Made by a program: the position numbers and the translations under genes. Shown piece by piece: positions 3,192-55,857 of a stretch of 64,000 nt of DNA; position 1 is the stretch's first letter; each line of letters opens with the position of its first letter. The notes beneath the pieces were generated by a model. The model had not been told where the DNA came from. It searched no databases and was given only the letters and a program-made list of their open reading frames with translations. This DNA is from Actinocorallia populi (GTDB lineage: Bacteria; Actinomycetota; Actinomycetes; Streptosporangiales; Streptosporangiaceae): the NCBI RefSeq assembly GCF_002995495.1, contig NZ_PVZV01000001.1, positions 930,001-994,000 on the forward strand, written 5' to 3'.

Positions 3192-3224
3192 CCACAGAGA
3201 AGTGAGACTCCTGGAGGTCCCCCC

Positions 3225-4070: not shown

Positions 4071-4106
4071 CGGTGGCGCCTTCGGCCGCGTCCCGGCGGG
4101 AGCGGC

Positions 4107-4758: not shown

Positions 4759-4783
4759 AAAGCGCTTTCGTGGAATATTCCAC
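4759..4783. promoter_or_regulatory. Two adjacent perfect palindromes upstream of the XRE regulator
   Basis: AAAGCGCTTT (4759-4768) is followed one base later by GTGGAATATTCCAC (4770-4783); both are perfect palindromes. They lie about 50 bp before the HTH gene start at 4830, in the control region shared with the divergent ATPase gene. They are AT-richer than the surroundings and well placed for autoregulation by the XRE protein. No consensus for this regulator family is known to me, so the assignment is inference. Confidence 0.5.
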
Positions 4784-4829
4784 TTCCGTTCGTGCAGGCA
4801 CTCGGGGACCACACACCCAGGAGGGTTCC

Positions 4830-5723: not shown

Positions 5724-5739
5724 AAGCGGGGTGTTCTTA

Positions 5740-5931
5740 ATGCTGGAATTCTCCCGCCTTACCTGGCGGAAGAGCAGCCGGAGTGCGCAGAACGGGGCAT
5801 GTGTCGAGATCGGCACCTCCCGTCCCGGCGCGCCCGTGGCAATACGGGACAGCAAGAACCCGGAGGGTTGGAAACTGGCCTTCTCGCGGTCCGAGCTTCG
5901 TTCCTTCATGGCGAAGGTGAAGACGCTGTAG
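5740..5931 (+). CDS. DUF397 small acidic-type protein
   Basis: 63 residues with the full DUF397 pattern: an N-terminal W-R-K-S-S-R-S motif (LTWRKSSRSAQNGACVEIG), a central VAIRDSKNPEG and a terminal FSRSELRSFMAKVK. These proteins are typically encoded directly after XRE/DUF5753 genes and are thought to modulate the partner HTH protein. ATG 5740 was chosen; an in-frame GTG at 5731 is an alternative, and neither has a strong ribosome-binding site, consistent with coupling to the upstream gene (stop at 5723). It is followed at once by a strong intrinsic terminator. Confidence 0.9.
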   Translation: MLEFSRLTWRKSSRSAQNGACVEIGTSRPGAPVAIRDSKNPEGWKLAFSRSELRSFMAKVKTL

Positions 5932-5944
5932 CCGATTATATCTC

Positions 5945-5985
5945 GACGGGCGCGGCACTTCGGTGCCGCGCCCGTCTGCTTTTTT
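5945..5985 (+). terminator. Rho-independent terminator after the DUF397 gene
   Basis: A perfect 14-bp stem (5945-5958 pairing with 5963-5976) is closed by a TTCG tetraloop and followed by TGCTTTTTT. It lies 13 bp after the DUF397 stop codon. Convergent placement against the MFS gene ending at 6045 may also make it useful on the other strand, though only the plus strand has a T-run. Confidence 0.95.
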
Positions 5986-6044
5986 CGAGCATTTCCCGAA
6001 GGCTGTCGTTCCAATCGGGAATTCTCGTTCTGTAATTTTCCAGA

Positions 6045-7538: not shown

Positions 7539-8030
7539 TCAGCGGAAGCAGCCGCAGTCCGCCATCGCCCACTCGGTGACCGAGGAGCCCGGGCCCGAGA
7601 CGTGCTCGTACTCCGCGCAGAGCATCTGGACGACGAACAGCCCGCGCCCGTCCTCGGCCAGGTCCTCCACCGGGACCGCGGGCCCGGCCGCCGCCAGCAG
7701 GAGCTCGGTCTGCGCGGTGACGTCACCGCGCAGCACCGGCTTGCCGATGGGCGGGGAGTGGTGGACCAGGCGCCCCCAGACCCGGTTCCTGCCGTGGACG
7801 ACGCTCAGGGAGACCTTGCCGTCGCCGCCGTGCTCGGCGCAGTTGCCGAGCAGCTCCGACACCACCAGCAGGAACTCGTCGCGGACGCGGCAGGAGGAGC
7901 CGAAGATGCCCCGCAGCCAGTCGCGGGCCGCCGTCCCGGCCCGCAGGTCCACCGGAAGGGTCCGTTCCGCCGTCCACCCGGGAGACGTGGACGGACCCAC
8001 CTGGCTGTCGACCGCGGGCGTTCTGTTCAC
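7539..8030 (-). CDS. RsbW-like ATP-binding regulator (second WhiJ-like locus)
   Basis: 163 residues with a single HATPase_c_2 domain: N box VRDEFLLVVSELLGNCAEHGGDGKV, G1 GRLVHHSPPIGKPVLRG (the usual D-x-G-x-G is poorly preserved), and G2 EDGRGLFVVQMLCAEYEH. Because the G1 Asp is replaced in this protein, ATP binding may be weaker than in its paralogue at 4107-4487. GTG 8030 has GGAG six bases upstream. It lies 89 bp downstream of the XRE gene on the same strand, so the two probably share a transcript. Confidence 0.82.
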   Translation of the reverse strand: MNRTPAVDSQVGPSTSPGWTAERTLPVDLRAGTAARDWLRGIFGSSCRVRDEFLLVVSELLGNCAEHGGDGKVSLSVVHGRNRVWGRLVHHSPPIGKPVLRGDVTAQTELLLAAAGPAVPVEDLAEDGRGLFVVQMLCAEYEHVSGPGSSVTEWAMADCGCFR

Positions 8031-8119
8031 GGATCGCTCCAGTCAGCGTGCTTCCGACGGACGTGCCTAAAACTAGGGATCGGGCCGCGCCCTCGTCCAG
8101 ATTGTTTCTCGGAGTTTCT

Positions 8120-8959
8120 TCAGGGTTTTGCGGCCTCGATCAGATTCTGCGCGGTACGGCCGTACGCCGAGGCCTCCACCAGGTGTTCGAAGGTCTTGAG
8201 GTAGTGCGCGACGTCCGCCGGCTGGCGGTTACGGATCTGCCCGGCGACCAGATCCGGACGGACCTCATCGGCGTCGTAGATCCAGAACCCCTCCCACGGC
8301 CAGACCGTGCGCGGCGCCCGCAGCGGCAGGATGCCCAGGGAGACGTTCACCTGCCCGCCCACGAAGTGCAGCAGCCGGTCGAGCTGCTCCAGCATGCCCT
8401 CCTCGTCGAGCATGGGAGCGTACAGGGCGGCCTCGGAGACGACGAAGCTGAAGCGCTTGGTCCCGTCGGCCAGGTGCTGCTGGAGCTTGAGCCGCTCCTC
8501 CGTCGCGGCGTCCACGTCGTTGGGCACCTCGCGGAACTCCATGATGGACGTCAGGTGCGCCTTGGCGTAGGCGGGGGTCTGCAGCAGCGACGGGATGGGG
8601 CTGTGCTGGAAGATGCGGAACTCCGACGTGCCCTCGTACTGGGGATTGAAGGATTCCTGGACCCGGCGCAGGCCGGTCTGCTCGATGCGGCGCCACTGGA
8701 TGTAGAGGTCGTCGATGTTGCGGACGGCCGCGATGAGGTCGGGCACGCTCTCGGGATTGCCGGTGGCGGTGCACCAGACGCGGATGTCGCGCTCGGTGGG
8801 GATCTGCACCCCGTTCTGGATCTTGGAGACCTTGGACTTGGCCCAGCCGACCTCGGCGGCGAGCGAGATGGTGTTGAGCGGTGACTCGGCGAGCAGCTGC
8901 CGCAGCCGGGCCGCGAGGATGCTCGCGGCCTCGTCGGCCCGCTCCTTGGTAGTGGGCAT
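8120..8959 (-). CDS. XRE helix-turn-helix regulator with DUF5753 domain
   Basis: 279 residues. An N-terminal HTH (about 10-70) contains LLAESPLNTISLAAEVGWAKSKVSKIQNG. The remainder is DUF5753-like, with IQWRRIEQTGLRRVQESFNPQYEGTSEFRIFQ and PSLLQTPAYAKAHL. It is paralogous in layout to the protein at 4830-5723 but only distantly similar. No DUF397 gene accompanies this copy. Together with the ATPase gene downstream it forms a second, partial WhiJ-like locus. Confidence 0.9.
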   Translation of the reverse strand: MPTTKERADEAASILAARLRQLLAESPLNTISLAAEVGWAKSKVSKIQNGVQIPTERDIRVWCTATGNPESVPDLIAAVRNIDDLYIQWRRIEQTGLRRVQESFNPQYEGTSEFRIFQHSPIPSLLQTPAYAKAHLTSIMEFREVPNDVDAATEERLKLQQHLADGTKRFSFVVSEAALYAPMLDEEGMLEQLDRLLHFVGGQVNVSLGILPLRAPRTVWPWEGFWIYDADEVRPDLVAGQIRNRQPADVAHYLKTFEHLVEASAYGRTAQNLIEAAKP

Positions 8960-9036
8960 CCCACGAAGCTACGCCGTTTGTTGCGAGTTGTCGCGGAGAG
9001 TTTCTTGATCACTCGGTGTTCGGCCCGCGCCGGATC

Positions 9037-9960
9037 TCAGGCCAGGTCGGACGGGTCGGTGTTGGCTCCGCAGAGGACGACGGCCACCGTGCCGGAGCCG
9101 TCGTCGAAGTGGGGCAGCCCGGCGTAGGCGGTCGCGGCGGAGTGCTCGACGGCGAGCCGGTAGCGCTCCCACAACCGCCGCCGCGCGTCGATGATCTCGA
9201 GGTCGGTGACGAGCAGGCTGTCGGAGCGGGTGGTCCGCGCGGTGTCCAGCGCCAGCCGGGACGCGCGCCGGGCGCCCAGGGCGTCGGCGGCGACCGAGTC
9301 GACGGTGACGTCCACGGGCCGGCCCGCCTCCAGCGCGGCGTTCAGCGCGCGGCAGTTCTCCGGCTCGACGACGACCGTGCGCAGCCCGTGGTGGTCGGCG
9401 GCGGTCGCGATCCCGGTGAACAGGCCGCCGCCTCCGGCCGAGATGACGATCGTGTCCAGCCGCGGCACCCGGGCGCGGATCTCGTCCACGAGAGTGCCCG
9501 CGCCGGCCGCGATCAGCGGGTCGTCGTAGGCGTGCGAGGCCAGCGCCCCGGACTCGGCGGTGAACTCCTGGCAGGCGCCGAGCGCGTCGGCGTACTCGGC
9601 GCCGACCTGGCGGACGTCCGCGCCGTAGCCGCGCAGCCGCTCGACCTTCACCTTCGGCGCGGTCTCGGGGACGAAGACCGTGGCGGGAACCCCGAACAGG
9701 CCCGCCGCCCAGGCGCACGCCATGCCGGCGTTGCCCCCGCTGGCGATGGCCACCCCGGCCGGGGGCAGCGTCCCGGCCTCCCGGTGGGCGAGCAGCAGGT
9801 TCAGCGCGCCGCGCGCCTTGAAGGAGCCGGTGTGCTGCATGAACTCCAGGGCGAACCACAGCGGGCCGTCGGCGTGCGCGACCGCGGTCTCGCGGATCCG
9901 CGAGGTGATGCGCCGGGCGGCCTGCTCGACGTCGCCGTAACCGATCTTCTGAGCCTCCAC
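9037..9960 (-). CDS. PLP-dependent serine/threonine dehydratase-like protein
   Basis: 307 residues, fold type II PLP enzyme. The cofactor Schiff-base lysine sits in GSFKARGALN. The asparagine loop reads ASGGNAGMACAWAA and the phosphate-binding glycine loop SAGGGGLFTG. These motifs match the threonine deaminase/serine racemase group, which deaminates hydroxy-amino acids to 2-oxo acids. No ACT regulatory domain is present, so it resembles the catabolic rather than the biosynthetic form. GTG 9960 (VEAQKIGYGDVEQAARRI) fits the family N-terminus. The gene follows the chromate transporter by 34 bp. Confidence 0.87.
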   Translation of the reverse strand: MEAQKIGYGDVEQAARRITSRIRETAVAHADGPLWFALEFMQHTGSFKARGALNLLLAHREAGTLPPAGVAIASGGNAGMACAWAAGLFGVPATVFVPETAPKVKVERLRGYGADVRQVGAEYADALGACQEFTAESGALASHAYDDPLIAAGAGTLVDEIRARVPRLDTIVISAGGGGLFTGIATAADHHGLRTVVVEPENCRALNAALEAGRPVDVTVDSVAADALGARRASRLALDTARTTRSDSLLVTDLEIIDARRRLWERYRLAVEHSAATAYAGLPHFDDGSGTVAVVLCGANTDPSDLA

Positions 9961-9994
9961 ACCGTCTCTTCTACCACCGCGTTTCCCCCGGCAA

Positions 9995-11158
9995 TCACCA
10001 GAGAAAGGCATGAACCAGTCCTATCGCCGCTCCTGCGGCGATGTACCACGCGTTGTTGATCCGGGTCCGCCACACCAGCACGAACGTGCCGAGGGCGATG
10101 GCCGCGGTGAGGGGATCGGTGACCGCGGTGCGGGCGAGCTGCCAGGAGACACCGGCCATCAGCGCGAGCGCGGCGGCGTTGACCCCGTCCAGCAGGGCGC
10201 CCGTCCAGTCCCGGGAACGCAGGAAGCCGGTGAGCCGGGTGAGCAGCCCGACGAACAGGAACGACGGCAGGAAGACGGCCACGGTGGCGAGGAACGCGCC
10301 GGGGAGCCCGGCGACGACGTAGCCGAGGAAGGTGGCGGTGGTGAAGACGGGGCCGGGGGTGACCTGCCCGACGGAGACGGCGTCGACGAGCTGCTGCTCG
10401 GTGATCCAGCCGAGCCGTTCCACGAAGTCGCCGCGCAGGAACGCCAGCAGGACGTAGCCGCTGCCGTACAGCACCGCGCCGATCTTCAGCATGGTGGCGA
10501 AGAGCTCGGCGAGCTGGGCTCCGGTCGGGTCGGGGAAGAGCGGGGAGCCGTCGGCGAACGGCAGCGGCACCAGGGCGCCCGGACCCCTCGCGCGGCGCGC
10601 CCGGAGCGCGGCGCGGGCCGCGGCGGCCGAGGCCGCGCCGCAGGCCAGGACGAGCAGCTCGTTGACGCCCGCCAGGTAGGCCGCGAGCGCGGCGGCGGCG
10701 AGCAGCCCGAGCCACACCGTCCTGAGCACGGCGCGCAGCAGGGCGAAGAGCGCGTGGGCGATGATCGCGATGACGGCGGGCACCACCCCGTACAGGACGC
10801 CCTCGACGGCCGGGGTGCTCCCGTGGCGCACGTACGCCCAGGCCAGCGCGGTGACCATCAGCGCGGCGGGCAGGATGAAGCAGACCCCGGCCGCGACCAG
10901 CCCCCGCCACCGCGCCCGCTCGTGGCCGAGGTGGATGGCCAGTTCGGTGGAGCTGGGGCCGGGGATGAGGTTGGTGGCGCCCATCAGGTCGGCGAACCGC
11001 CGGTCGGTGACCCAGCCCCGGCGCCGCACCAGCTCGTCGCGCATCAGCGCGGTGTGCGCGGCGGGCCCGCCGAACGCGATGGCGCCGAGCCTGAGGAACA
11101 GCCCGGCGACCTCCCGCCACGATCCGCGCGCCGGTGCCGCGTTCTCCTCGTCCGCCAT
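9995..11158 (-). CDS. chrA: Chromate transporter (CHR family, two-domain)
   Basis: 387 residues with two homologous CHR halves. The N half has RLGAIAFGGPAAHTALMRDELV and MGATNLIPGPSSTELAIHLG. The C half has KIGAVLYGSGYVLLAFLRGDFV and AVSVGQVTPGPVFTTATFLGYV. The paired FGGP and PGP motifs are diagnostic. Known members export chromate using the proton-motive force, while many actinobacterial homologues are untested. The gene is expressed on the minus strand ahead of the dehydratase gene. No chromate-responsive regulator is adjacent. Confidence 0.92.
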   Translation of the reverse strand: MADEENAAPARGSWREVAGLFLRLGAIAFGGPAAHTALMRDELVRRRGWVTDRRFADLMGATNLIPGPSSTELAIHLGHERARWRGLVAAGVCFILPAALMVTALAWAYVRHGSTPAVEGVLYGVVPAVIAIIAHALFALLRAVLRTVWLGLLAAAALAAYLAGVNELLVLACGAASAAAARAALRARRARGPGALVPLPFADGSPLFPDPTGAQLAELFATMLKIGAVLYGSGYVLLAFLRGDFVERLGWITEQQLVDAVSVGQVTPGPVFTTATFLGYVVAGLPGAFLATVAVFLPSFLFVGLLTRLTGFLRSRDWTGALLDGVNAAALALMAGVSWQLARTAVTDPLTAAIALGTFVLVWRTRINNAWYIAAGAAIGLVHAFLW

Positions 11159-11218
11159 CCCGGAATCCCACCACGCCCGGGTGAACCGGGGGTGAAACCG
11201 TGCGCCGGGACGGCCGGC

Positions 11219-12064
11219 TCAGTAACCCCACAGGCGGGTGATCTCGCGCAGCTCCTCGGGGACGTCCTCGCGGGAGGGCAGGGGACGGGCCCGCTGGATC
11301 CTGCCGGACTTGAGGTTGGCGCTCCAGTCGCCGAAGACCGGCTTGATCGGGCCGTGGTCGTGGGCGCCGTAGTCGAGCATCGAGGACTCCCACGGCACGC
11401 CGAGGTAGGCGCAGATCTTCTTCGTCACGTCGGCCGGGTCGGCGGTCAGGTCCTCGTAGCGGACGGTGAGGCCCTCCAGGCTCTGCCGGGCGGTCTCGAC
11501 GCCCGTCACGTAGTCGAGGACCTCCTTGACCACGGCGTCGCGGTCGGCGTCCTTGCGGCGGTTCAGGAGCGACTCGACGACGGACGCGGGATGGCGCTGC
11601 AGGAAGATGTAACGCGCCTCCGGCCAGGCCGAGGAGATGCGCTGCCACTGCAGGGCGTTGGAGGGGGTCTTGTCGACGATGATGGACTTCCTGCTCTTCA
11701 GCAGCTCGTGATGGAGCACCCGGTCCCACAGCAGGTGCTCCAGCTCGGTGAGGCTGAGTCCGACCGCGTCCATGATGTCCGCGGAGTACTTGCGGCTCGG
11801 CTCGACCTTGAGCGTGCGCAGGTGCAGCTCGTGCGGCGCGCGCAGGCGCGAGTGGCTGTTGAGCAGGACGCGCAGGAGGGTCGACCCCGACCGTACCGAC
11901 GAGAGGACGAAGACGGGCGAGGCGACCAGGCGTGTGGCCGACCGGTCGGGCAGTGGCGCCCTCCGCTTGAGCGCCACCCCCGGAGGCCTCACGGCCTCGA
12001 GCAGGTGTGCTCCCCTGCGCCGGATGGCCTTCTTGATCACGCGCTTGCGCTTGGCGTCCTGCAT
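11219..12064 (-). CDS. Sulfotransferase-family protein
   Basis: 281 residues. The PAPS 5'-phosphosulfate-binding loop is VFVLSSVRSGSTLLRVLL and the 3'-phosphate-binding segment is YIFLQRHPASVVESLL. VDKTPSNALQ in between is the usual Lys-Thr-Pro strand. A basic N-terminal tail (KRKRVIKKAIRRR) precedes the domain. It most resembles bacterial small-molecule/carbohydrate-type sulfotransferases (Sulfotransfer_3). The acceptor is unknown. ATG 12064 has only a close GAAGG upstream, and a start a few codons downstream is possible. No PAPS-synthesis genes are nearby. Confidence 0.88.
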   Translation of the reverse strand: MQDAKRKRVIKKAIRRRGAHLLEAVRPPGVALKRRAPLPDRSATRLVASPVFVLSSVRSGSTLLRVLLNSHSRLRAPHELHLRTLKVEPSRKYSADIMDAVGLSLTELEHLLWDRVLHHELLKSRKSIIVDKTPSNALQWQRISSAWPEARYIFLQRHPASVVESLLNRRKDADRDAVVKEVLDYVTGVETARQSLEGLTVRYEDLTADPADVTKKICAYLGVPWESSMLDYGAHDHGPIKPVFGDWSANLKSGRIQRARPLPSREDVPEELREITRLWGY

Positions 12065-43629: not shown

Positions 43630-44229
43630 ATGAGTGATCCGTTCGCCGAGGGCGCTCGGGACACCTCGCAGCAGACCGAAGACGACGCTCCTGAGGGACT
43701 GGCCGCACTGCTGCAGTACGTGGCCTGCGGTGACCGACGGGCGTTCGAACTCGTCTACGAGCAGGTGTCGGGGCCCGTCTACGGCACGATCCTGCGCGTC
43801 GTACGCGACCCTGCGCAGACCGAGGAGGTCGCGCAGGAGACACTGGTCCAGGTGTGGAGAGAGGCTTCGCGGTTCGACCCGCTCCGGGGGAGCCCGATGG
43901 CCTGGATCCTCACACTCGCCCACCGGCGGGCCGTCGATCGCGTTCGCAGCGTTCAAGCCGGTTCCGCTCGGGAGCAGCGGGCGGGATACGTGGAGCGGGA
44001 GCACGACCACGTGGTCGAAGAAGTCGAGACCCGGCTCGACCGCGAACGGGTACGCCGCTGCCTCGGTGGTCTCACCGGGTTGCAACGCGAGTCCCTCACG
44101 CTCGCCTACTACTCGGGGTACACCTATCCCGAGGTGGCCGGACTGCTGAATGTGCCGCTCGGCACCGTCAAGACCCGCATGCGCGACGCTCTCATCCGGA
44201 TGCGCGACTGCCTGGGAGTGGACCGATGA
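43630..44229 (+). CDS. sigK: ECF sigma factor, SigK group
   Basis: 199 residues. Sigma region 2 (about 35-105) contains FELVYEQVSGPVYGTILRVVRDPAQTEEVAQETLVQVWREASRFDP and MAWILTLAHRRAVDRVRS. Region 4 (about 135-190) contains LTGLQRESLTLAYYSGYTYPEVAGLLNVPLGTVKTRMRDALIRMRDCLG. The SigK identity rests on sequence style, the RskA-type partner overlapping by four bases, and the adjacent FAS1 lipoprotein gene. It is held inactive by RskA at the membrane until regulated proteolysis. ATG 43630 has GGGAGAG upstream. Confidence 0.9.
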   Translation: MSDPFAEGARDTSQQTEDDAPEGLAALLQYVACGDRRAFELVYEQVSGPVYGTILRVVRDPAQTEEVAQETLVQVWREASRFDPLRGSPMAWILTLAHRRAVDRVRSVQAGSAREQRAGYVEREHDHVVEEVETRLDRERVRRCLGGLTGLQRESLTLAYYSGYTYPEVAGLLNVPLGTVKTRMRDALIRMRDCLGVDR

Positions 44230-44936
44230 ACGCCCACGACATGCACAGCCTCCTGGCTCCCTACACGCTGCACGCGCTCACTGATGTCGAACGCCGCCGT
44301 TTCGAACACCACCTCACCGAGTGCGAGAGCTGCGCCGAGGAACTGCGAGGCTTGAACGAGACGGCTGCGATGCTCGGAGTCGCCCTCTCCCGACGTCCTC
44401 CGGCGGTGCTGCGCGAACGCGTCATGGAGGAGGTCTCCCGTACTCGGCAGCTTCCGCCGAGGGTCGGGAACCACCGCAGGTGGCGCTGGAACCTTCCGGG
44501 TACCCCGTTGCTGTTCCTTGCCGCCGCAGCTGTCATCACCGCCGTCCTCTTCACGGGCTTCACCGTTTTCTCGAGCTCTGACCAGGTGCGCCACCCCGAC
44601 CCGCAGATCGACGCGGTGCTGTCCGCCTCGGACGCCCGTGACGTCGAATTCCGGCTGGCCGGAGGAGGCAGCGGAACCCTCGTCGTGTCCCGCTCTCTGA
44701 ACAAGGCGTTCATCACGATGGACGGCCTGCCCGCCATCCCCGCCACCCGCGCCTACGAGCTGTGGCTCCTCGGCCCCGGAACTCCACGTCCAGCCGGCCT
44801 GATGCATGACACCCGCGGCTCGCGGCTGCTCACCGCCCTCGACGACGCGACCCAGGTGGGCGTCACCGTCGAGCGCGCCGAAGGGGTCTCCGCCCCCACC
44901 AGCGCGCCGATCTTCACCTTGCGCCTCCCCGGCTGA
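44226..44936 (+). CDS. rskA: Anti-sigma-K factor RskA
   Basis: 236 residues. The N-terminal cytoplasmic anti-sigma domain contains the zinc-type motif HHLTECESCAEEL (H-x3-C-x2-C). One transmembrane helix (LLFLAAAAVITAVLFTGFTVF, about 98-118) follows, then an extracytoplasmic RskA domain (VEFRLAGGGSGTLVVSRSLNKAFITMDGLP, YELWLLGPGTPRPAGLM). It sequesters SigK and releases it after intramembrane proteolysis. The start overlaps the sigK stop (ATGA), fixing near-equal synthesis. Confidence 0.92.
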   Translation: MNAHDMHSLLAPYTLHALTDVERRRFEHHLTECESCAEELRGLNETAAMLGVALSRRPPAVLRERVMEEVSRTRQLPPRVGNHRRWRWNLPGTPLLFLAAAAVITAVLFTGFTVFSSSDQVRHPDPQIDAVLSASDARDVEFRLAGGGSGTLVVSRSLNKAFITMDGLPAIPATRAYELWLLGPGTPRPAGLMHDTRGSRLLTALDDATQVGVTVERAEGVSAPTSAPIFTLRLPG

Positions 44937-46850: not shown

Positions 46851-49800
46851 CTATTTCCCAAGGGCCGCGATGGCGGCGGCGGTTTCGGGGTGGCGGGCCA
46901 GGAGGGCGGTCACCTCCTCCGGGCCGCCTGCGGGGGACGGGGCAGGGGTCTGCCAGACGGGGTCGTGGCCCAGGAGGGCTGCGATGGCGTCGCAGGGGGC
47001 CGGGTGGGCGGACAGGAGGGCGGCGGCGGGGGTGGCAGGGGCTCGGGGTTCCCTGCGTGCGGGCCGCCGGCGCTCCCAGGGCGGGGTCCAGGCGTCGAGG
47101 GCGGGGAGGGCGGCGGGGAAGGTGCGGTCGGCCTCGCGGACGAGAGTGGGCAGAAGGCCGCCGGAACCGGCGCGCAGGGTGGTGATGAGCTTGGGGAGCC
47201 AGGGGAGGAGGACGGCGTCGGGGAGGCGGCCGAAGGCCTTGGACAGGAGTTCCACGACGAAGGGGGTGAGGGTGGGGACGGGGTCGAGGGCGTGGATGAA
47301 GCCGTTCAGGTAGTGGGGGAAGGCCTCGATGGAGAAGGGGTTGTCGAGCAGGCCGTCGCACAGGGCGCGCAGCTCGTCCTGGGGCAGCAGGCCCAGGCGG
47401 GAGCGTGCGGCCCACAGCAGGGCGACCTTGGCGGGGGACTCGGGGTGGGACTGGCGTACGGCCAGCTCCAGCTGGGTGTGGTCGCAGCCCAGGGACAGGG
47501 CGAGGCCCTCCATGCCGAACAGGAAGCCCAGCATGGCCGCGACCTGCCGGACACCGCCGGCGTCGTCGGTGAAGGCCGTCGGCAGCAGTGTGCAGTAGTG
47601 CGCGTAGCCGGTGGTGACGAACTCCTCGCACCAGCGGGGAAGGGCGGGTTCCGCCGCACGGTGGTGGGTGAGCAGGCGGCGGATGCGGCGCAGCACCTCG
47701 GGCGCGTCGTCGACGTCGCGTTCGGCGGCCAGGAGCTCCACGGCCCGCACGCCGAGCTCGTCGGGGAGCCGCCGCCCCGGCAGGAAGCGGATGGCGTCCT
47801 CCACGGCGGCCAGCGCGGTGGAGGCGGTGGCCTGGGGATGCCGGACGGCGCGGCGCAGCCGCTGCTCCAGCACCTGCTCGACGGTCACGCCCTCGTAGCC
47901 GAGTTCGACCAGGGCGCGCTGGTCGCGGCCGAGCGCCAGGTCCCAGCTCTCCTGGATGGAGCGTTCACCCAGCTCGCGGGAGCCCATGATGGGCCGGACG
48001 GTGCCCTTGGGCAGCAGCCGGTGCAGGATCCACAGCAGGTCCGAGCAGGGCGCCAGCTCGGGCCGGGTCTTCAGGTCCATCAGGGCCCGCTGGATCGTGC
48101 GCGCCTGCAGGTTCAGCCCGAGCGGCTCCAGCCTGTCGAGCACGTCCCGCGCCAGCGGCGGCAGCGACTCGTACCCGACCTGGCCGATCCGGTCGCCGCC
48201 GAGCAGGATCTCGCACAGCCGGGCGACGTCGCGCCGGCCCGGCACCGTGTCCTTCTCGATGCAGGTGACGGCCGCGTCCTGGAAGTCGTACGGCGTCGGC
48301 CGCCGCCGGTTCCGCATGTTCGCCAGCAGCACCGACGTCTCGAACACCGCGATCGCGTCCGCCGTGCTGGCCTGATATCCGTTCCGCCGGGCCAGCCGCA
48401 CGATGTCCACACACCAGCCGAGCAACTCGCCCTCGTCGAGCACGTTCTGCGCCGGCGGCTCCGCCAGGAACCCCGACAACCGGTCGTCCACCGACTCCGG
48501 GAGGGCGCTCGGCCGCACCCGTTCGTCCGCTCCCACCTGCGCTTCGGTGCCTGGAGCCGCTCGGCCCGTCTTCACAGGACCTTCGTGCGGCCCGTTCGCC
48601 GGGGGAGCGGCGGCCGTCTGTCCGGCCTGCCGGTGCGTCTCCTCCGGGAGCGCGGGACCGCGGTGCTGCGGCGTGGAGACGGGCGGAACGGAGACGTCCA
48701 GGGCCTCCTGCCCGGCCCGGCCGCGGGCGCTCTTGTGGTTTTTGAGGCGGAAGGGCTTCACGCCGGTGTGCTTGAGGGCCTTGGACCAGGTGGCGGCGGC
48801 GATCGAGACGGAGCCGGGCGCGAGCCCGAACTGGGCTTCGATGGCCGAGTGGCTGGACGGGATGAGGCCGTACTGCCAGCGGGTCTTCGTACGGGGCTCG
48901 ATCTCGTGGGAAGCCGTGGCCGCGAGACCGAACTGCTCGACGCGGCTGGCGGCGTGGAAGGCGCCGCAGACGTACAGGCAGTCGGACGGGTCGGTGCCGG
49001 ACGCGGCGAGGTGTTCGCGCATGCGCGTCCACATGTGGCGTTCGCGCTCCTCGTCGCGGCCTTCGTCGCCGTCGCGGCGCAACCGCCGGAACAGGCTGCC
49101 GACCATGACCATGACCTGGCGGTAGGTGTCGTAATCGGCACCGGACAGCGGCTGCTCCACGTACTGGTCCCACCACTCCGACCAGTGGCGGACCTTGCCG
49201 TGGTGCAGCAGGTACCGCTCCAGCTCGGCGAAGCGGGGGCGCAGGTCGCCCAGCTCGACGCCCACCGAGTCGCCGTGCAGCGCGGCCTCCTCTTCGGACG
49301 TGGCGGACGCACCGGAGGCCCGGGGCGTGCCCGGCACGTCGGACTCGGGTGCTTCCTCTCCCCGGCGGCGCGGCTGCCACTGGAAGACGTGGTCGCTCGA
49401 ACGGTCCACCGGCACCAGCTCGACGCCCGGCGTCTCCAGCGCGTAGGCGATGGCCTGGTACTCGGCGGACGCCTCCGTCACCGGCGCGATCACGCTCAGC
49501 GGCGCCCACTCGGCGGGGAAACCGTCGAGCTCGGTGGCGAACGCCTGCAGCGCGACGGGCAGGCGGCAGTTGCGCAGCTCCCCGAGCAGCGGCCCGAGGT
49601 CCTCGCACAACTCCAGGTAGACGACCTTCGGCCGCTTCTCCCGCAACCTCCGCGCCATGGCCAGCGCGGAGGACGGCGAGTGGTGGCATACCGGGAAGAT
49701 CTCGAGTTCCTCGTGCAGTGCCCGGTCGACGTCGTCGACCATGCCGGCGAGGATCCCGGACAGCCCGTCCGGGCCCTCGGCGAAGGCTCCGGCGGCGTCG

Positions 49801-49883
49801 AGCAGCTGTTCGCGGAGCGCGGCGAACGGGTTCATCGGGTACGCGGCGTGCGGCCCCGCCCGCAGGACGGGCAGGGGGAACAC
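46851..49883 (-). CDS. DUF5682 (YehM-like) protein, last gene of the MoxR/vWA operon
   Basis: 1010 residues. The N-terminal region (about 60-320) resembles the TraB/TIKI/EreA hydrolase superfamily: FPVCHHSPSSA (66-72), PKVVYLELCEDL (85-96), then ERERHMWTRMREHL (279-292) and CLYVCGAFHAASRVEQFGL (302-320), i.e. His near the start, Glu after a strand, an R-x-x-M helix and a G-A-x-H. A Pro/Ala/Ser-rich linker (about 390-450) precedes about 550 helical residues homologous to DUF5682. GTG 49883 has a strong GGGAGGG site. Cytoplasmic. Likely the effector or substrate of the MoxR-vWA pair encoded upstream; function unproven. Confidence 0.85.
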   Translation of the reverse strand: MFPLPVLRAGPHAAYPMNPFAALREQLLDAAGAFAEGPDGLSGILAGMVDDVDRALHEELEIFPVCHHSPSSALAMARRLREKRPKVVYLELCEDLGPLLGELRNCRLPVALQAFATELDGFPAEWAPLSVIAPVTEASAEYQAIAYALETPGVELVPVDRSSDHVFQWQPRRRGEEAPESDVPGTPRASGASATSEEEAALHGDSVGVELGDLRPRFAELERYLLHHGKVRHWSEWWDQYVEQPLSGADYDTYRQVMVMVGSLFRRLRRDGDEGRDEERERHMWTRMREHLAASGTDPSDCLYVCGAFHAASRVEQFGLAATASHEIEPRTKTRWQYGLIPSSHSAIEAQFGLAPGSVSIAAATWSKALKHTGVKPFRLKNHKSARGRAGQEALDVSVPPVSTPQHRGPALPEETHRQAGQTAAAPPANGPHEGPVKTGRAAPGTEAQVGADERVRPSALPESVDDRLSGFLAEPPAQNVLDEGELLGWCVDIVRLARRNGYQASTADAIAVFETSVLLANMRNRRRPTPYDFQDAAVTCIEKDTVPGRRDVARLCEILLGGDRIGQVGYESLPPLARDVLDRLEPLGLNLQARTIQRALMDLKTRPELAPCSDLLWILHRLLPKGTVRPIMGSRELGERSIQESWDLALGRDQRALVELGYEGVTVEQVLEQRLRRAVRHPQATASTALAAVEDAIRFLPGRRLPDELGVRAVELLAAERDVDDAPEVLRRIRRLLTHHRAAEPALPRWCEEFVTTGYAHYCTLLPTAFTDDAGGVRQVAAMLGFLFGMEGLALSLGCDHTQLELAVRQSHPESPAKVALLWAARSRLGLLPQDELRALCDGLLDNPFSIEAFPHYLNGFIHALDPVPTLTPFVVELLSKAFGRLPDAVLLPWLPKLITTLRAGSGGLLPTLVREADRTFPAALPALDAWTPPWERRRPARREPRAPATPAAALLSAHPAPCDAIAALLGHDPVWQTPAPSPAGGPEEVTALLARHPETAAAIAALGK

Positions 49884-49933
49884 CGCTCCCTCCCTTCACG
49901 GAGACGGAGAGTGGGCTTCGAGACGGGCGGAGG

Positions 49934-51058
49934 TCAGGACAGCTTCGCGATCGCCTCTCGACCGCCCTCCAGGAAGCCCTTCCACGGTCCGTCCTCGTCC
50001 TGCTTGGAGCGGGGCTCGACGACGCCGTGCCAGAACTTGTTGAGGATCGCCAGGTCCTCGGGGCTGCGCCGGGCCAGCGAGCCGACCATCGACCCGGCGA
50101 GCGTCTCGGCGCGCAGCGCGCGGTCGCCGAAGAACTGGCTGTGCAGGATCGCGTCCTCCAGCACGCCGATCTGCTCGGCGGTGGACAGCGACGACTCCAG
50201 CCGCTCGTCGTCGCTGCTCGCCGAGGCCGCGGCGGCCCGCAGGTCGGCGAAACTCTGCAGCAGCACGTCCAGCAGGGTGGGCGGCACGTCCAGCTCGATC
50301 TGGTGGCGGCGCAGCAGTTCGGTGGTGCGGAACCGGACGATCTCCGCCTCGCTGTTCTTGCTCGCCACCATGGGGATGCGCACGAAGTTGAACCGGCGCT
50401 TGAGCGCGGACGACAGGTCGTTCACGCCGCGGTCGCGGCTGTTGGCCGTGGCGATGACGGAGAACCCGGGCTTGGCGAAGACGATGTTGTCGCCGTTGCC
50501 GTCGCTCAGTTCGGGGATCGACACGTACTTCTCCGACAGGATGGAGATCAGCGCGTCCTGCACGTCGCTGGTGGAGCGGGTGAGCTCCTCGAACCGGCCG
50601 ACGACGCCCCGCTCCATCGCCGTCATGATCGGCGAGGGGATCAACGACTCCCGCGACTGCCCCTTGGCGATCACCATGGAGACGTTCCACGAGTACTTGA
50701 TGTGGTCCTCGGTGGTGCCGGCCGTGCCCTGCACCACCAGCGTGGAGTTGCGGCAGATCGCCGCCGACAGCAGTTCGGCCAGCCAGCTCTTGCCGGTGCC
50801 GGGGTCGCCGATGAGCAGCAGACCCCGGTCGGACGCGAGCGTCACGATGGCGCGCTCGACGATGCTCCGGTCGCCGAACCACTTCTGGGGGATCTCGCGC
50901 TCCAGCCCGTCGGACCGCTCCGAGCCGAGGACGAACGTGCGGATCATCCTGGGGCTGAGCCGCCACGAGAACGGCCTGTGCCCGTCGTCGGCGGACTCCA
51001 GCCAGTCGAGCTCCTCGGCGTACTTCACCTCGGCGGGGGCGCGCAGCAGGTCACTCAT
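49934..51058 (-). CDS. MoxR-family AAA+ ATPase (YehL-like)
   Basis: 374 residues. Walker A is IGDPGTGKSWL (about 83-93), sensor 1 VIATANSRDRG (Asn about 206), arginine-finger region ALKRRFNF. The Walker B position reads GRFEELTRSTSDVQDALISIL, so the usual Asp-Glu-x-Asn-Arg is Glu-Glu-x-Thr-Arg. MoxR proteins act with vWA proteins as chaperone-like complexes that remodel or load cofactors into clients. The vWA gene ends eight bases upstream and an intervening GGAGAA serves as ribosome-binding site. Third-from-last in a five-gene operon with DUF5682 next. Confidence 0.93.
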   Translation of the reverse strand: MSDLLRAPAEVKYAEELDWLESADDGHRPFSWRLSPRMIRTFVLGSERSDGLEREIPQKWFGDRSIVERAIVTLASDRGLLLIGDPGTGKSWLAELLSAAICRNSTLVVQGTAGTTEDHIKYSWNVSMVIAKGQSRESLIPSPIMTAMERGVVGRFEELTRSTSDVQDALISILSEKYVSIPELSDGNGDNIVFAKPGFSVIATANSRDRGVNDLSSALKRRFNFVRIPMVASKNSEAEIVRFRTTELLRRHQIELDVPPTLLDVLLQSFADLRAAAASASSDDERLESSLSTAEQIGVLEDAILHSQFFGDRALRAETLAGSMVGSLARRSPEDLAILNKFWHGVVEPRSKQDEDGPWKGFLEGGREAIAKLS

Positions 51059-51066
51059 CGGTTCTC

Positions 51067-52347
51067 CTAGTCGAGGAAGTTCTTGAGCTCGAAGACGAGC
51101 TTGCGGATGTGACCCGAGATCACGGGGGTGCCCAGGTCCTTGAAGCGCTGGCGGAACCACGGGTTCACGCTCTGGTGGCCGGAGCTGTTGACCGAGCCGA
51201 CCGGGATGAACCTCACCCCGGAGCGGTGCACCTCCTGGATGCCGTCGAACAGCGGCTGGGACCGGTCGAACTCGTAGAAGTCCGAGATCCACACCATCAC
51301 GGTGTTCCGCGGGTCGGCGATCTTCGGGCGGGCCATGGCCATGGCGACGGGGCCGTCGTTGCCGCCGCCGAGCCTGGTGCGCAGCAGCACCTCGAACGGG
51401 TCGTCCACCCAGGGGGTGAGGTCGAGCGCGCGGGTGTCGTAGGCGATGAGGTGCACGTCGACCTTGGGCAGCCCGGCGAAGATCGACGCGAGGATGGTGC
51501 AGTTGACCATCGAGTCGACCATCGAGCCGGACTGGTCGACCACCACGATCAGGCGGGCGGGCGTGGTGCGCTTGGCGGTCTGCCTGAAGAACAGCCGGTC
51601 GACGTAGAGGCGCTCGTCCTCCGGGCTCCAGTTGGTGAGGTTCTTCCAGATCGTCCGGTCGAGGTCGAGGTTGCGGAACACCCGCTTGGGCGGCACCGAG
51701 CGGTCGATCTTCCCGGTGCTGGTCTGCTGCACCTGGGTGCGCAGCACCTCGGCGACCTCGTCGACGTACCGGCGGATCAACGCCTTGGCGTTGGCCAGCG
51801 CCACGCCCGAGAGGTTGGCCTTGTCGCGCAGCAGCTGCTCGATGAGCGACATGCTCGGCTTGAGCTGCCGGGCGAGCGCGGGGTCGGCCAGCACCTCGCG
51901 CAGCCGCATCCGGCTGACGAGGTCGCCTTCGAGCTCGCCCAGCACGCCGCCGAGCTCGGCGGCGCCCGCCTCGCCCGCGGCGCGTTCCAGCCAGTGCCGG
52001 TCGCGCTGCCAGTCGGCCAGCGCCGAGGCCGTCACCTGGCCCGAGCCGGTGGCGAACACGTTGAGCAGCAGCTTGGAGAAGAGCGCGGCCCGCCGTACCC
52101 GCTCGCCCGGGGCCTCGTCCAGGTCCGTGGTCTCGGACAGCTCCTGGAATCCGGCCTCCAGTTCGGGAAAGCGCTGCACCAGGTTGTCGACCGAGACGCC
52201 CGGGTCGAGCAGCGCCGGGGGCAGCCCGAGGTCGTCGACGACGGCGACGCTCGCCGCCTCCAGCGACGGCTGCTCCTCGGGGTCGAACAGGCGGGCCAGG
52301 AGCCTCCAGTAGAGGACCTGCCGCCGGTGCGCTTCGGCTTCGCTCAT
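51067..52347 (-). CDS. vWA-domain protein (YehP-like)
   Basis: 426 residues. The N-terminal 230 residues are helical and family-specific. A C-terminal von Willebrand A domain (about 265-410) has an intact MIDAS: VVVDQSGSMVDSM (D271, S273, S275) with VMVWISDFYEF later. It therefore should bind a divalent metal and a partner protein. Together with the MoxR ATPase it forms the expected chaperone pair. It overlaps the upstream gene by four bases (ATGA) and is spaced eight bases from the ATPase gene. Confidence 0.94.
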   Translation of the reverse strand: MSEAEAHRRQVLYWRLLARLFDPEEQPSLEAASVAVVDDLGLPPALLDPGVSVDNLVQRFPELEAGFQELSETTDLDEAPGERVRRAALFSKLLLNVFATGSGQVTASALADWQRDRHWLERAAGEAGAAELGGVLGELEGDLVSRMRLREVLADPALARQLKPSMSLIEQLLRDKANLSGVALANAKALIRRYVDEVAEVLRTQVQQTSTGKIDRSVPPKRVFRNLDLDRTIWKNLTNWSPEDERLYVDRLFFRQTAKRTTPARLIVVVDQSGSMVDSMVNCTILASIFAGLPKVDVHLIAYDTRALDLTPWVDDPFEVLLRTRLGGGNDGPVAMAMARPKIADPRNTVMVWISDFYEFDRSQPLFDGIQEVHRSGVRFIPVGSVNSSGHQSVNPWFRQRFKDLGTPVISGHIRKLVFELKNFLD

Positions 52348-53735
52348 CTGCGCAGCAACCTTCCCGCCCGTTCACGAAGGACGGCCACGGAGTCACCGGA
52401 CCTGGCCTCGGCCTTGACGACCTTCGGGTCGGTGGGGCCCAGCGCCCAGTCGCCGGTGTGCGCCTCGAACGGCTTGCGTTTGGCCGTCCCCTGGACGGCG
52501 AGCGGCTGGGCCTTCCACCGTCCGGCGTCCCAGCGGACCAGCCCGACGCACGCGGAGGAGGCCTTGACGAGCTCGGACGTGAGGGGACCGCAGGACGGCA
52601 GCCGGTCGAAGTCGACATCGAGGACGCGGTCGCCCAGCCGGAACCCGTCGCCGTCGACGGTGTACCCCTCGAGCAGCACGGGCTCGGCGATGCGCACCGG
52701 GTGGCGTTCCAGCGGAGGCACCGCGGGAGCGAGGGCCCCGGTGAGCATGACCCGGGCGGTGGTGAAGGGGTCGGCCGGCTCGCCTGCCGCGGCCTGCCCG
52801 TCCTGCCAGACCAGGTCGCCTCCCGCCAGGAGCGGCATTCCGGAGATCTCCAGGACACGGCGTTCGGCCAGCGCGCCCAGCAGCACGGGATGGTCGGACA
52901 GCAGCCGCCACACCGCGGGCCCGGCGATGGTGTCGACCTTCGCCGCGGCGGCGCTCGCCCGGACCAGCCGGGTCCGGGCGCCGCCGGACGGCTCCAGAAC
53001 GGCGTGCACCTGGATCTGCACGGCGGTGTCGTGCTCGTGCACGTCCACGCCGAGCACGAGCAGCCGCCCCGACACCTCTTCAGCGGGTTCGGCCGCGCAC
53101 GCGCGGCCCCCGGCCTGGGCGAGCAGCAGCGCCCGCGACCACAGGTCGGCCCAGCGCCGGACGGGCAGCCGCTCAGCCGTCCCGACCGGGCTGAACGCCC
53201 GCAGTTCGGACGCGAGCCCGTCGAGCAGCACCGCGGGCCTGCGCAGCGCGGGCACCGCGAACAGCGCCTCGATCACCCGATCGGCGGAGGACACCAGGTC
53301 GTACCCCACCCCGCGCCAGCCGGTGATGGCCAGTTCGTGCAGCCAGGCCCGGCATCCGCCGAGCAGGTCGTCGGACACCGGCGGGGCGGGCGGCCGCGTC
53401 CACTCGTCACGGTCGCGGCCGAGCGCGGCGTCCAGCGAGTGGAGCAGCGCGTCGTGCACGGCGCCGAGCAGCGCGGCCCTGCCACCGGCCAGTACCGCGA
53501 GGTGCTCCTCGGTGACGGAGCCCGCGGTGAGCTTTTCGACGGCCTCGGCCACCGCTTCGCCGATCGGCGAGACGGCCAGGGCCGCGGCCAGCGCCTCCAG
53601 GGCCTCCAGCCGTTCCGGGTCGAGCCGGGCGAACCCGTGGACGAGCGCGTCGTCGAACCCCGCGACCAGGCCGAGCGCCTCCTCGACGCCCTCGGGAGAC
53701 GCGCCGAGCAGTTCGGAGAGCTGGATCTCGAGCAT
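52344..53735 (-). CDS. Unknown protein of the MoxR/vWA operon
   Basis: 463 residues, soluble, Ala/Leu-rich. The first half is helical (AVSPIGEAVAEAVEKLTAGSVTEE, WLHELAITGWRGVGYDLVSSADRVI). The second half has beta-rich segments (RVMLTGALAPAVPPLERHPVRIAEPVLLEGYTV, GDRVLDVDFDRLPSCGPL). I recognise no catalytic motif. It lies between the SWIM gene (one-base TGATG overlap) and the vWA gene (four-base overlap), so it is an integral operon member. It may correspond to the non-SWIM part of YehQ-type proteins, in which case a fused ancestor has been split; this is inference. Confidence 0.82.
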   Translation of the reverse strand: MLEIQLSELLGASPEGVEEALGLVAGFDDALVHGFARLDPERLEALEALAAALAVSPIGEAVAEAVEKLTAGSVTEEHLAVLAGGRAALLGAVHDALLHSLDAALGRDRDEWTRPPAPPVSDDLLGGCRAWLHELAITGWRGVGYDLVSSADRVIEALFAVPALRRPAVLLDGLASELRAFSPVGTAERLPVRRWADLWSRALLLAQAGGRACAAEPAEEVSGRLLVLGVDVHEHDTAVQIQVHAVLEPSGGARTRLVRASAAAAKVDTIAGPAVWRLLSDHPVLLGALAERRVLEISGMPLLAGGDLVWQDGQAAAGEPADPFTTARVMLTGALAPAVPPLERHPVRIAEPVLLEGYTVDGDGFRLGDRVLDVDFDRLPSCGPLTSELVKASSACVGLVRWDAGRWKAQPLAVQGTAKRKPFEAHTGDWALGPTDPKVVKAEARSGDSVAVLRERAGRLLRR

Positions 53736-54271
53736 CAGCGCACCGCCCCGGCCGCCGGGAACCAGTGCAGCTCCGGGACGGGCACCGTGGTGCCCGGCAG
53801 CTCCAGGTAGGACAGGTGCCGCAGGAAACGGCTGAACACGACCGCCGCGTCCGAGGGCTCCGGCGAACCGCCGAGGGCGCTCACCAGGTCGCCGCTCTCG
53901 TCGACGTCGACCTTCAGGTACCGCGCGACGCGCTCCAGCCCGTACTGCAGCACCGCCTCGTCGGCGAGGGCCCGCAGGTGCTTGCAGGGCAGCCCGCGCA
54001 GCCCGCCGCACGGCCGGTTGTTGTTCGTCCGGCAGTTGTAGGCGTGGCTGCCCGCGCTGATCGATGAGACGTACACGCGGCTGATGTCCGAGCCGCTCGA
54101 CACGACCCCCTGCAACCGCCCGTCCGCCAGTTCCACGAAGGGAACCTTCGCCAGCTTGCGCGGCCGCGCCGGCGGGACTATTCGCACCGCGCTCCGCCGC
54201 TCCCAGCCGGCCTCGTCCACGTCCAAGCCCATGCCTCCCGTCACCGACCGGTCTCTGACGACCTCGATCAT
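53735..54271 (-). CDS. SWIM-type zinc-finger protein (YehQ N-terminal-like)
   Basis: 178 residues. The SWIM-like element is at about 77-102: HAYNCRTNNNRPCGGLRGLPCKHLRALADEA. It has C80, C88, C96 and H98, i.e. C-x7-C-x7-C-x-H rather than the classical C-x-C-xn-C-x-H. Preceding strands (LQGVVSSGSDISRVYVSSI) match the usual SWIM context. It should bind zinc and nucleic acid or protein. First gene of the five-gene operon. ATG 54271 has no clear ribosome-binding site. The FAD oxidase gene ends 68 bp upstream on the same strand. Confidence 0.85.
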   Translation of the reverse strand: MIEVVRDRSVTGGMGLDVDEAGWERRSAVRIVPPARPRKLAKVPFVELADGRLQGVVSSGSDISRVYVSSISAGSHAYNCRTNNNRPCGGLRGLPCKHLRALADEAVLQYGLERVARYLKVDVDESGDLVSALGGSPEPSDAAVVFSRFLRHLSYLELPGTTVPVPELHWFPAAGAVR

Positions 54272-54339: not shown

Positions 54340-55857
54340 TCAGGGAAGCGCGGAGGCCGGGGCGCTGAGCGGGGAGCCGATGCCCTGGGCGTAGCGGAGG
54401 ACGCCGCCGGGGTCGCAGTGTTCCTTCACTTTCAGGAGACGGTCGTAGTTGGGGCCGTAGTAGGCGTCGTGCCAGCCGACGAGGTCGGGGTCGGGGAAGT
54501 TGACGTAGGCGGCCGTGGTGCGCAGGTCGTGGCACAGCAGCCGGTACACGGTGTCGAGTCGGCGGAGCATGCGGTCCACCGATTCGGCGGAGGCCTTCGA
54601 AGCCCAGGAGGCGCCGATGTCGATCACAAAGGTGGCCTGGCGGTGGGGAAAGGCCGTCTCGGCAGAGGAGACGGACGCGGTGGCGCCTCCCATCGCGAAC
54701 AGCGTGACATGGCCGGAGGCACCGGGCACGTCCGGCTTCCAGTAGCGGATCCAATCCGTGACGGCCGCGACGGCCTGCGACGTCGGCCACCGATCGGGTA
54801 CCAGGGATTTGGAGGCCATCGCCTCCGGGCGCTCCTCCATCGCCAGGTGCTTCTGCGCCGCCCAGAAGCCGCGCTGCTCGATGAGCCGCTTGTCCGGGCC
54901 CAGGGACAACATCGGGGCCATGAGCCTCCTCAGCCGGTCCTCGTCGCCGAGGCACTGGCCGAGTAGCGCGATCGAGGGCAGTCCCCGCCCAGGGTGAGAG
55001 AAACCGACGCGGACGTCGAGGTCGCCCGTGTGGTCGCGCTGGAGCAGTTCCCGGAGCATCTCCATCAGCGTGACCCCGTGGTGCGGGGCGAAAGAGAAGT
55101 CGAACACCGTGGAGACCTGCCGGTCGACTCTGACGGCGTCGAAGACGAAGGCCGTGTTGATGCCGAAGTTGCCTCCGGCCCCGCCGCGGCAGGCCCAGAA
55201 CAGGTCGGCGTTCTCCTTTTCGCTCGCGCGCACCAGGGTCCCGTCGGCCAGGACCAGCCGGGTCTCCACCAGCCGGTCGCAGCTCAGCCCCCATTTGCGG
55301 TCGTTGAATCCCAGCCCGCCGCCGAGCGTCAACCCGGCGACGCCCACTCCGGGGCAGCGCCCTCCGGGGAAGTACAGTCCGGTGCCTCCGACTCCGGCCC
55401 GGTAGACGTCGGAGTTGGTCGCGCCACCTCCCACCGCGAGGCGGTCGCCGTGCGGAAACACCTCGCTGATGCGCCGGAGGTCGATCAGCAGGCCGGGTGT
55501 GGTGGAGTGCCCGGCGTAGTTGTGGCCGCCCGAGCGCGGCGTCAGCGGCATACCGTGCTCGACGGCCCACCGGAGGGCCGCCTGGACGTCGCGCTCGGTG
55601 GCGCAGGAGACGATGCCGGCCGGCCGGAGGTCCGCGTAACGCAGGTTCTGCGGCAGGGCGAGCTTGGCGTATCCGGTGTCGTCGGGGCGGTGGAGGCGTG
55701 CCGCGGGGCTGAGCGCCCGGCGGAGGCTCCGCCAGGCCGACCGGTCGGGAACGGCTCGTCGGAGGGCCGCCGCGGGAGCGGGTCCGAGCAGACCGGCGGC
55801 CATCCCGCCGGCGGCGATCCGTGCTCCCGCTCGCAGAACATCACGTCGATTGCGCAT
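54340..55857 (-). CDS. Tat-exported berberine-bridge-type FAD oxidoreductase
   Basis: 505 residues. A twin-arginine-type signal (RNRRDVLRAGARIAAGGMAAGLL) precedes a PCMH-type FAD domain. RSGGHNYAGHS carries the His and GGRCPGVGVAGLTLGGGLGF the Cys of bicovalent flavinylation. The C-terminal BBE motif is AYVNFPDPDLVGWHDAYYGPNYDRLLKVKEHCDPGGVLRYAQGI. It should oxidise an alcohol, sugar or alkaloid-like compound outside the cell, reducing oxygen. A 17-bp palindrome 72 bp upstream may control it. The TetR gene lies upstream on the same strand. Confidence 0.93.
   Translation of the reverse strand: MRNRRDVLRAGARIAAGGMAAGLLGPAPAAALRRAVPDRSAWRSLRRALSPAARLHRPDDTGYAKLALPQNLRYADLRPAGIVSCATERDVQAALRWAVEHGMPLTPRSGGHNYAGHSTTPGLLIDLRRISEVFPHGDRLAVGGGATNSDVYRAGVGGTGLYFPGGRCPGVGVAGLTLGGGLGFNDRKWGLSCDRLVETRLVLADGTLVRASEKENADLFWACRGGAGGNFGINTAFVFDAVRVDRQVSTVFDFSFAPHHGVTLMEMLRELLQRDHTGDLDVRVGFSHPGRGLPSIALLGQCLGDEDRLRRLMAPMLSLGPDKRLIEQRGFWAAQKHLAMEERPEAMASKSLVPDRWPTSQAVAAVTDWIRYWKPDVPGASGHVTLFAMGGATASVSSAETAFPHRQATFVIDIGASWASKASAESVDRMLRRLDTVYRLLCHDLRTTAAYVNFPDPDLVGWHDAYYGPNYDRLLKVKEHCDPGGVLRYAQGIGSPLSAPASALP

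Follow-up and report, generated by a model that had tools for sequence, protein, structure and literature searches.

What does an operon do that joins a MoxR ATPase and a von Willebrand factor A (vWA) protein to a protein of family DUF5682, of which we found no mention in the literature searched? The question is raised by five minus-strand genes of Actinocorallia populi at 46851 to 54271 of a 64,000-nucleotide stretch (contig NZ_PVZV01000001.1, positions 930,001 to 994,000; hereafter the window). In 5' to 3' order they encode a SWIM-like protein, a 463-amino-acid (aa) protein, the vWA protein, the MoxR ATPase and the DUF5682 protein. The gene set, its constant order, the membership of three products in recognised families, the conservation of ATPase, metal ion-dependent adhesion site (MIDAS) and candidate catalytic residues, and the fusion of DUF5682 to vWA at other loci are established. 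The reading that we prefer, and hold tentatively at somewhat short of even confidence, is that an ATP-driven MoxR-vWA machine remodels or switches DUF5682, which would be a TraB-like hydrolase.

The operon and its relatives

The first-pass annotation had described a compact operon resembling yehLMPQ of Escherichia coli. Its account of the packing was exact: all five genes lie where it placed them, with overlaps of 1 and 4 bp and gaps of 8 and 50 bp. The SWIM-like gene (53735..54271, 178 aa) and the gene for the 463-aa protein (52344..53735) overlap by 1 bp in the sequence TGATG, the latter overlaps the vWA gene (51067..52347, 426 aa) by 4 bp, and 8 bp separate the vWA gene from the MoxR gene (49934..51058, 374 aa). 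The gap between MoxR and the DUF5682 gene (46851..49883) is 50 bp if the latter starts at GTG 49883 (1010 aa), or 98 bp if it starts at ATG 49835 (994 aa), the residue that matches the start in most of six relatives. Pfam recognised DUF5682 (PF18934, 111.2 bits against a curated cut-off of 26), AAA_5 in the MoxR protein (123.8 bits) and VWA_CoxE in the vWA protein (103.9 bits, its best vWA family).

In E. coli K-12, a DUF4132 gene, yehI, and then the small yehK lie upstream of yehL-yehM-yehP-yehQ; strain MG1655 has two MoxR proteins, of which YehL is one (PMC3893208). As in the window, the MoxR, vWA and DUF5682 families are adjacent on a single strand. Sequence and profile comparisons upheld three of the proposed pairings, MoxR with YehL, vWA with YehP and DUF5682 with YehM, whereas that of the SWIM-like protein with YehQ is only suggested. 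MoxR of the window and YehL share 39% identity (E about 1e-81; E 0.6 against RavA), and the vWA protein is 33% identical to YehP (E 3e-45). BLASTP aligned DUF5682 with YehM at 28% identity over 98 aa, and comparison with the canonical YehM family gave a profile probability (Prob) of 99.9 over 672 columns, or 99.5 for the N-terminus alone. By these comparisons the MoxR protein is of the YehL subfamily, as judged against RavA. RavA-ViaA shares with the window the logic of a MoxR ATPase and a vWA protein, although neither subunit matches its window counterpart significantly; the vWA protein gave no match in a sequence comparison with ViaA.

The window operon is thus, by sequence, a variant of the yehLMPQ-type systems and related to a little-studied E. 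coli cluster. The E. coli order is L-M-P-Q with yehI upstream, whereas the window type has its own order and no such conserved neighbour; its SWIM-like protein is only 178 aa long with a different ligand spacing, it carries the extra 463-aa gene, and its DUF5682 is divergent. The literature searched named yehL, yehM and yehP together only in a genome announcement. Among the matches listed for the yeh gene names there was no functional study of YehL partners, and no title on DUF4132, MoxR, SWIM and DUF5691 pairings was found.

The A. populi genome carries two further DUF5682 systems (on contigs C3 and C5), three in all, and the three MoxR copies beside DUF5682 match one another, the next-best place in the genome reaching only E 2e-4. 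MoxR, DUF5682 and vWA occur together in 14/14 canonical-type actinobacterial loci, the C3 and C5 loci included. The loci differ in their accessories: 9 of the 14 have a type-B SWIM gene and 6 have DUF5691, L142 and L143 show a YehQ-like match, and the three loci with fused genes have a large neighbour that was not recognised. One recurrent arrangement, SWIM-DUF5691-MoxR-DUF5682-vWA, was seen at the C3 locus, at L132-L135 and L140, and in Deinococcus (L169). Its MoxR is about 43-44% identical to that of the window (C3 and L169), and its DUF5682 and vWA proteins are homologous to those of the window, whereas DUF5691 replaces the 463-aa gene and the order or strand differs. A. populi thus holds both window-type and SWIM-DUF5691-type loci.

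One open frame spans both DUF5682 and vWA in 3 of the 14 canonical-type loci (L006 in A. populi itself, L139 and L141). At a plasmid locus (L173), an annotated protein of 1257 aa matches PF18934 and VWA_CoxE over their full profiles, as does the L006 product. Because a single open frame joins the two in four other loci, they probably act together, and the fusions probably reflect an interaction of the separate proteins.

Several features of these relatives were recorded in passing. The L006 fusion (at 7564-11577 of the C5 segment 93000-111000) lies behind a gene for a 1647-aa protein (1326-6269), whose Pfam matches were all at E 0.23 or worse; L139 and L141 have this pair too. At the C3 locus (L005), the type-B SWIM gene (5568-6677), read from 5568, has no CxC...CxH ligands, and that of Rhizobium Kim5 (L170, 3081-4492) is split over two frames. 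On plasmid pl1 of Iodobacter fluviatilis (L166, 10537-12593), the annotation divides a YehQ-like protein, next to a type I restriction-modification set, between two overlapping genes; the split could be genuine or due to a frameshift.

A candidate active site in DUF5682

Across 13 diverse DUF5682 N-termini (21-55% identity to YehM), 23 columns are invariant, among them YehM H11, H12, E35, R175, E176, M179, G199 and H202. This H, H, E, R, E, M, G, H set is present in 77/77 window-type rows, and each residue in 23/23 canonical rows, except for the second H (22/23). Counted from ATG 49835 of the window gene, the proposed motifs are H51-H52 (I), E75 (II), R264-E265 (III) and G291-H294 (IV), and the putative TraB/TIKI-like domain would extend approximately over 48930..49700 on the minus strand, as judged from residue invariance, a weak TraB profile match and a signature search.

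TraB belongs to the TIKI superfamily. The invariant H / E / RE..M / GxxH set of DUF5682 resembles the signature of TraB/GumN hydrolases, H...E...R[NDE]xx[MW]...GxxH, and offers a candidate active site that we treat as a lead. In the TraB/GumN proteins compared, the motifs are GxxH, E, R[ND]xx[MW] and GxxH, and the order His, Glu, Arg, His is the same in DUF5682, although its H-E spacing is shorter than in TraB. DUF5682 also differs from both TraB/GumN and Ere in its linkage to MoxR and vWA and in its long C-terminal half, in which no domain was recognised besides the DUF5682 model itself. Among the matches listed for TraB and Tiki in the literature, no title concerned DUF5682 or YehM.

Alignment with hhalign of the DUF5682 family N-terminus to a TraB/GumN profile (8 usable rows, the L145 row being empty) gave E 0.001 in a single comparison, running through RExxM and GxxH, and when stringency was low, the E and first GxxH of the two families came into register as well. 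Two unrelated control profiles gave Prob 0.1-0.2, and TraB against Ere 0.4. A loosened four-motif signature was found in 21/23 canonical, 80/80 window-type and 6/8 TraB rows, and in 0/13 Ere rows. Among 4271 open reading frames (ORFs) of the collected loci it matched 119, of which 103 were DUF5682 by their HHxP pattern and the other 16, by eye, were 10 DUF5682 and 6 TraB.

Several results weigh against this likeness. The four-motif pattern as first written was too narrow, finding 1/23 canonical, 5/80 window-type and 5/8 TraB rows, and was loosened afterwards. The hhalign Prob of DUF5682 against TraB was 20-22, which is not significant by usual standards. With an in-house aligner z was 2.6, with 1 of 25 shuffles scoring higher and one unrelated control reaching 1.9, and the window-type profile alone against TraB gave z 2.3 with the end of the alignment out of register. 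The Pfam TraB model matched 0/6 DUF5682 pieces, and a sequence search of solved structures found no DUF5682 relative. The window-type DUF5682 profile aligned out of register with Ere.

A further discrepancy concerns the active site itself. In RRSP, a set of two His and two Glu is described as common to other TIKI enzymes, with a His-Glu pair as the proposed activator of water; the superfamily is taken to include Ere-type and ChaN structures (PMC6254334). The first Glu of that set is missing from DUF5682, which has GxRHH (canonical) or PVCHH (window type) in its place, and it is also missing from the TraB/GumN rows compared. Because this Glu is absent, we keep DUF5682 as a lead and do not assign it to TIKI or TraB. 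Two other yardsticks were set aside: a relationship with Ere, for which the motifs of the canonical profile fell in place yet hhalign Prob was 0.7, and the ChaN family, of which 100 genomes searched held no member. Weighing these comparisons, we lean slightly towards a TIKI fold for the DUF5682 N-terminus.

Conservation and descent of the window-type operon

The survey of named loci covered the best 80 of at least 540 matches and, being so chosen, leans to close kin. All five genes are complete and in identical order in 76 of the 80 loci, and the remaining 4 are cut at contig ends; the co-occurrence of the five families on which the original proposal depended was thus borne out. The SWIM-like gene is present in 76/80 loci (the others cut) and the 463-aa protein in 78/80 (two others cut at contig ends). 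All six relatives' loci with a strong DUF5682 match show the same five genes and order, at least three of these six overlapping the 80-locus set. When ORFs within 8 kb were clustered, each flanking family was found at 8 or fewer of the 80 loci.

Presence across genomes is patchy. Among 200 genomes of the order, 82 carry the 463-aa protein (E<=0.001) and 82 a 212-aa N-terminal piece of DUF5682 (E<=1e-30), and 81 of the 83 with either have both. The two exceptions (G365 and G319) are highly fragmented assemblies, with about 810 and 1050 contigs; in two further genomes (G314 and G281) the matches lie on separate contigs, so that adjacency is not demonstrable there. Among 41 near genomes, A. populi included, seven carry the 463-aa protein and eight DUF5682. 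Seven of these eight matches are strong and fall in the same genomes as the 463-aa protein, and the eighth is weak (G015, 6e-4), at a locus with just divergent MoxR and vWA relatives. The operon was found in neither of the two same-genus genomes searched.

A combined vWA and MoxR tree (79 rows, a quick method with a simple model and no bootstrap) required the family label to change 9 times, where the minimum is 5 and shuffled labels gave a mean of 44.9, so that inheritance looks mostly vertical. The window falls in a group of 20 rows with 12 Thermomonosporaceae, 5 Nocardiaceae and two Streptomyces (Shimodaira-Hasegawa-like approximate likelihood ratio test, 98). Horizontal jumps are possible on this tree, for example in the two Streptomyces that stand beside Actinomadura.

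Two of the alignments, A3 and A4, held the window with 59 and 70, respectively, of the 76 complete loci. SWIM-like rows of at least 260 aa were excluded, as were rows of the 463-aa protein outside 420-540 aa, leaving 70/77 and 75/79 rows.

The SWIM-like and 463-aa proteins

The SWIM zinc-finger motif is CxCxnCxH. The putative zinc ligands of the window protein (C80, C88, C96 and H98, identical in 70/70 rows) are spaced C-x7-C-x7-C-x-H, and no Pfam family matched it at E<=1, the SWIM zinc finger PF04434 included; for these two reasons we call it only SWIM-like. Its hhalign Prob was 0.2 against YehQ and 2.5 against type-B SWIM, with shuffle z of 2.8 and 2.2 (control 0.7), and no profile search was significant. 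The two accepted SWIM groups also aligned poorly with each other (Prob 9.7). That the gene is the YehQ counterpart, as the first-pass annotation had suggested, is therefore plausible but unproven: the gene is there, with an odd ligand spacing and no significant profile test.

At E<=1, the 463-aa protein matched nothing in Pfam, PADLOC or NCBIfam. By eye it made an attractive C-terminal half of a YehQ or type-B SWIM protein, but the comparisons gave this candidate no support (Prob 0.2 and 0.1, shuffle z 0.3 and 1.5, no match by hidden Markov model). DUF5691 was rejected (Prob 0.2, z 0.8).

A proposed motor, its adaptor and their target

The MoxR Walker A motif, the EE of Walker B and the RR of the presumed Arg finger are identical in 77/77 rows, as are the DxSxS and the later D of the vWA MIDAS. 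Across the rows that we compared, the residues of Walker A, Walker B and MIDAS and the putative zinc ligands do not vary, so that motor and adaptor can be expected to function. MoxR-vWA pairs are believed to grip a substrate peptide and remodel it using ATP (PMC7159879). In the mechanism that we propose, a ring of the YehL-type MoxR protein with its MIDAS-bearing vWA adaptor would bind and remodel DUF5682, whose N-terminal third would be the TraB/TIKI-like hydrolase domain. ATP hydrolysis would toggle this enzyme between being held and being active or metal-loaded, and the SWIM-like and 463-aa proteins may form a sensing or targeting arm. Whatever goes beyond joint action of MoxR, vWA and DUF5682, namely the TIKI fold, catalysis, the ring, which way control runs, what the target is and the accessory roles, we infer; a point against the mechanism is that even the action of the ATPase on DUF5682 is deduced from linkage and fusion.

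The strongest alternative, which we consider rather unlikely, is that the MoxR-vWA pair is a maturation chaperone that metal-loads or assembles DUF5682 or a complex from outside the operon, with DUF5682 as client or scaffold and no regulated hydrolase. The MoxR-vWA pairs CbbQO, NorQD and RavA-ViaA are regarded as acting in this way. VWA_CoxE, the best family of the window vWA protein, fits such a role, and the pairs studied so far act in complex assembly and maturation (PMC7159879; PMC3893208). In E. coli, yehLMPQ was covered over at least 80% in 5162 of 5426 genomes (about 95%), as a housekeeping role predicts. However, no outside client is in sight, given that neighbouring families reach at most 8 of the 80 loci, and a passive scaffold would not need the candidate catalytic residues that are invariant in the 13 DUF5682 N-termini.

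Is the operon a defence system?

The first-pass annotation had also raised a role in conflict or stress. If the operon served in biological conflict or against phage, with DUF5682 as its effector, it would be analogous to the MoxR-vWA ternary systems of Kaur et al. 2020 (PMC7159879), which likewise combine MoxR and vWA with further components. Unlike those, the window has no VMAP at E<=1, and its bpMoxR score of 14.8 bits lies under the cut-off of 27. The main text of that paper mentions no YehL, SWIM, DUF5682, bpX or TraB; other vWA-MoxR systems are treated in PMC10910872.

The patchy presence of the 463-aa protein and the lack of the system in the two same-genus genomes searched speak for a conflict role, as do the self-contained cassette with no conserved neighbours and the three DUF5682 systems in one genome. 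On plasmids, a Streptomyces copy adjoins an N-6 DNA methylase and the Iodobacter canonical-type copy lies beside restriction-modification genes. In the PADLOC scan, MoxR weakly matched mad8 (21.3 bits, E 4e-5, over 21-122 of 314) and vWA weakly matched TerY (17.4 bits, E 6e-4, over 6-39 of 277). However, these matches are partial and of a general ATPase or vWA kind; two further matches were weaker and partial, none was found for the SWIM-like, 463-aa or DUF5682 proteins, and no match amounted to a defence model. Recurrent defence neighbours are lacking, yehLMPQ is near-core in E. coli, and the tree, clustered by family, points to mostly vertical descent. The conflict role is thus not supported by the PADLOC scan, the E. 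coli distribution or the tree, although the patchiness and the plasmid copies speak the other way; a dedicated phage-defence role is less likely, and we regard the conflict reading as improbable.

The phage collection gave no match to the window DUF5682 and one to YehM, an unverified faecal contig. Seven named plasmid loci all have an AAA ATPase beside DUF5682, with vWA as a separate gene in five, fused in L173 and absent from the incomplete gene table of L171. Five records of the plasmid collection hold the 463-aa protein, two of them below 1 Mb and the others of 3-12 Mb, which may be chromosomes or large replicons. Four 'plasmid' records of 4-5 Mb (NZ_OL790696.1, NZ_CP134663.1, NZ_CP141089.1 and NZ_OL790811.1) hold genes of E. 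coli or Proteus that are usually chromosomal; they look like chromosomes and should not enter plasmid-copy counts.

A stress or quality-control role, in which nucleic acid or damaged protein would be bound by the SWIM-like and 463-aa proteins, with DUF5682 as a structural, non-enzymatic hub, agrees with the constancy of the SWIM-like gene and the lack of a further recognised domain in the C-terminal half of DUF5682, and is very improbable in view of the invariant H/E/R/H set.

Genes around the operon

A gene judged by eye to encode a FAD-linked oxidase (54340-55857) lies on the strand of the operon, 68 bp ahead of the SWIM-like start, and beyond it on the plus strand is a cytochrome P450 gene (56758-58176, by eye). 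Downstream of the operon are ABC-type genes, also named by eye. Because no flanking family recurs in more than 8 of the 80 loci, we take the operon to be the five genes only, with the oxidase-like and ABC-type genes outside it. Elsewhere in the window (43630-44936, plus strand), an extracytoplasmic function (ECF)-type sigma factor is followed by a zinc-finger anti-sigma-like protein, both judged by eye from their translations.

Implications

The preferred reading, in which MoxR and vWA drive a TraB-like DUF5682 hydrolase, may extend beyond this operon. DUF5682/YehM would then found a large, unrecognised branch of MoxR-vWA-gated hydrolases of TIKI fold, chaperone-switched and protease-like, retained in almost all E. 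coli and in numerous actinobacteria, with exchangeable accessory modules: SWIM, DUF5691, DUF4132 and, here, the private 463-aa protein. We offer this joint conjecture, modules included, as doubtful and with less confidence than the mechanism at the window itself. Should DUF5682 prove to be a motor-gated hydrolase, a few point mutations would suffice to test what a cluster present in about 95% of E. coli genomes does, and MoxR-vWA systems would have an enzymatic output in addition to complex assembly.

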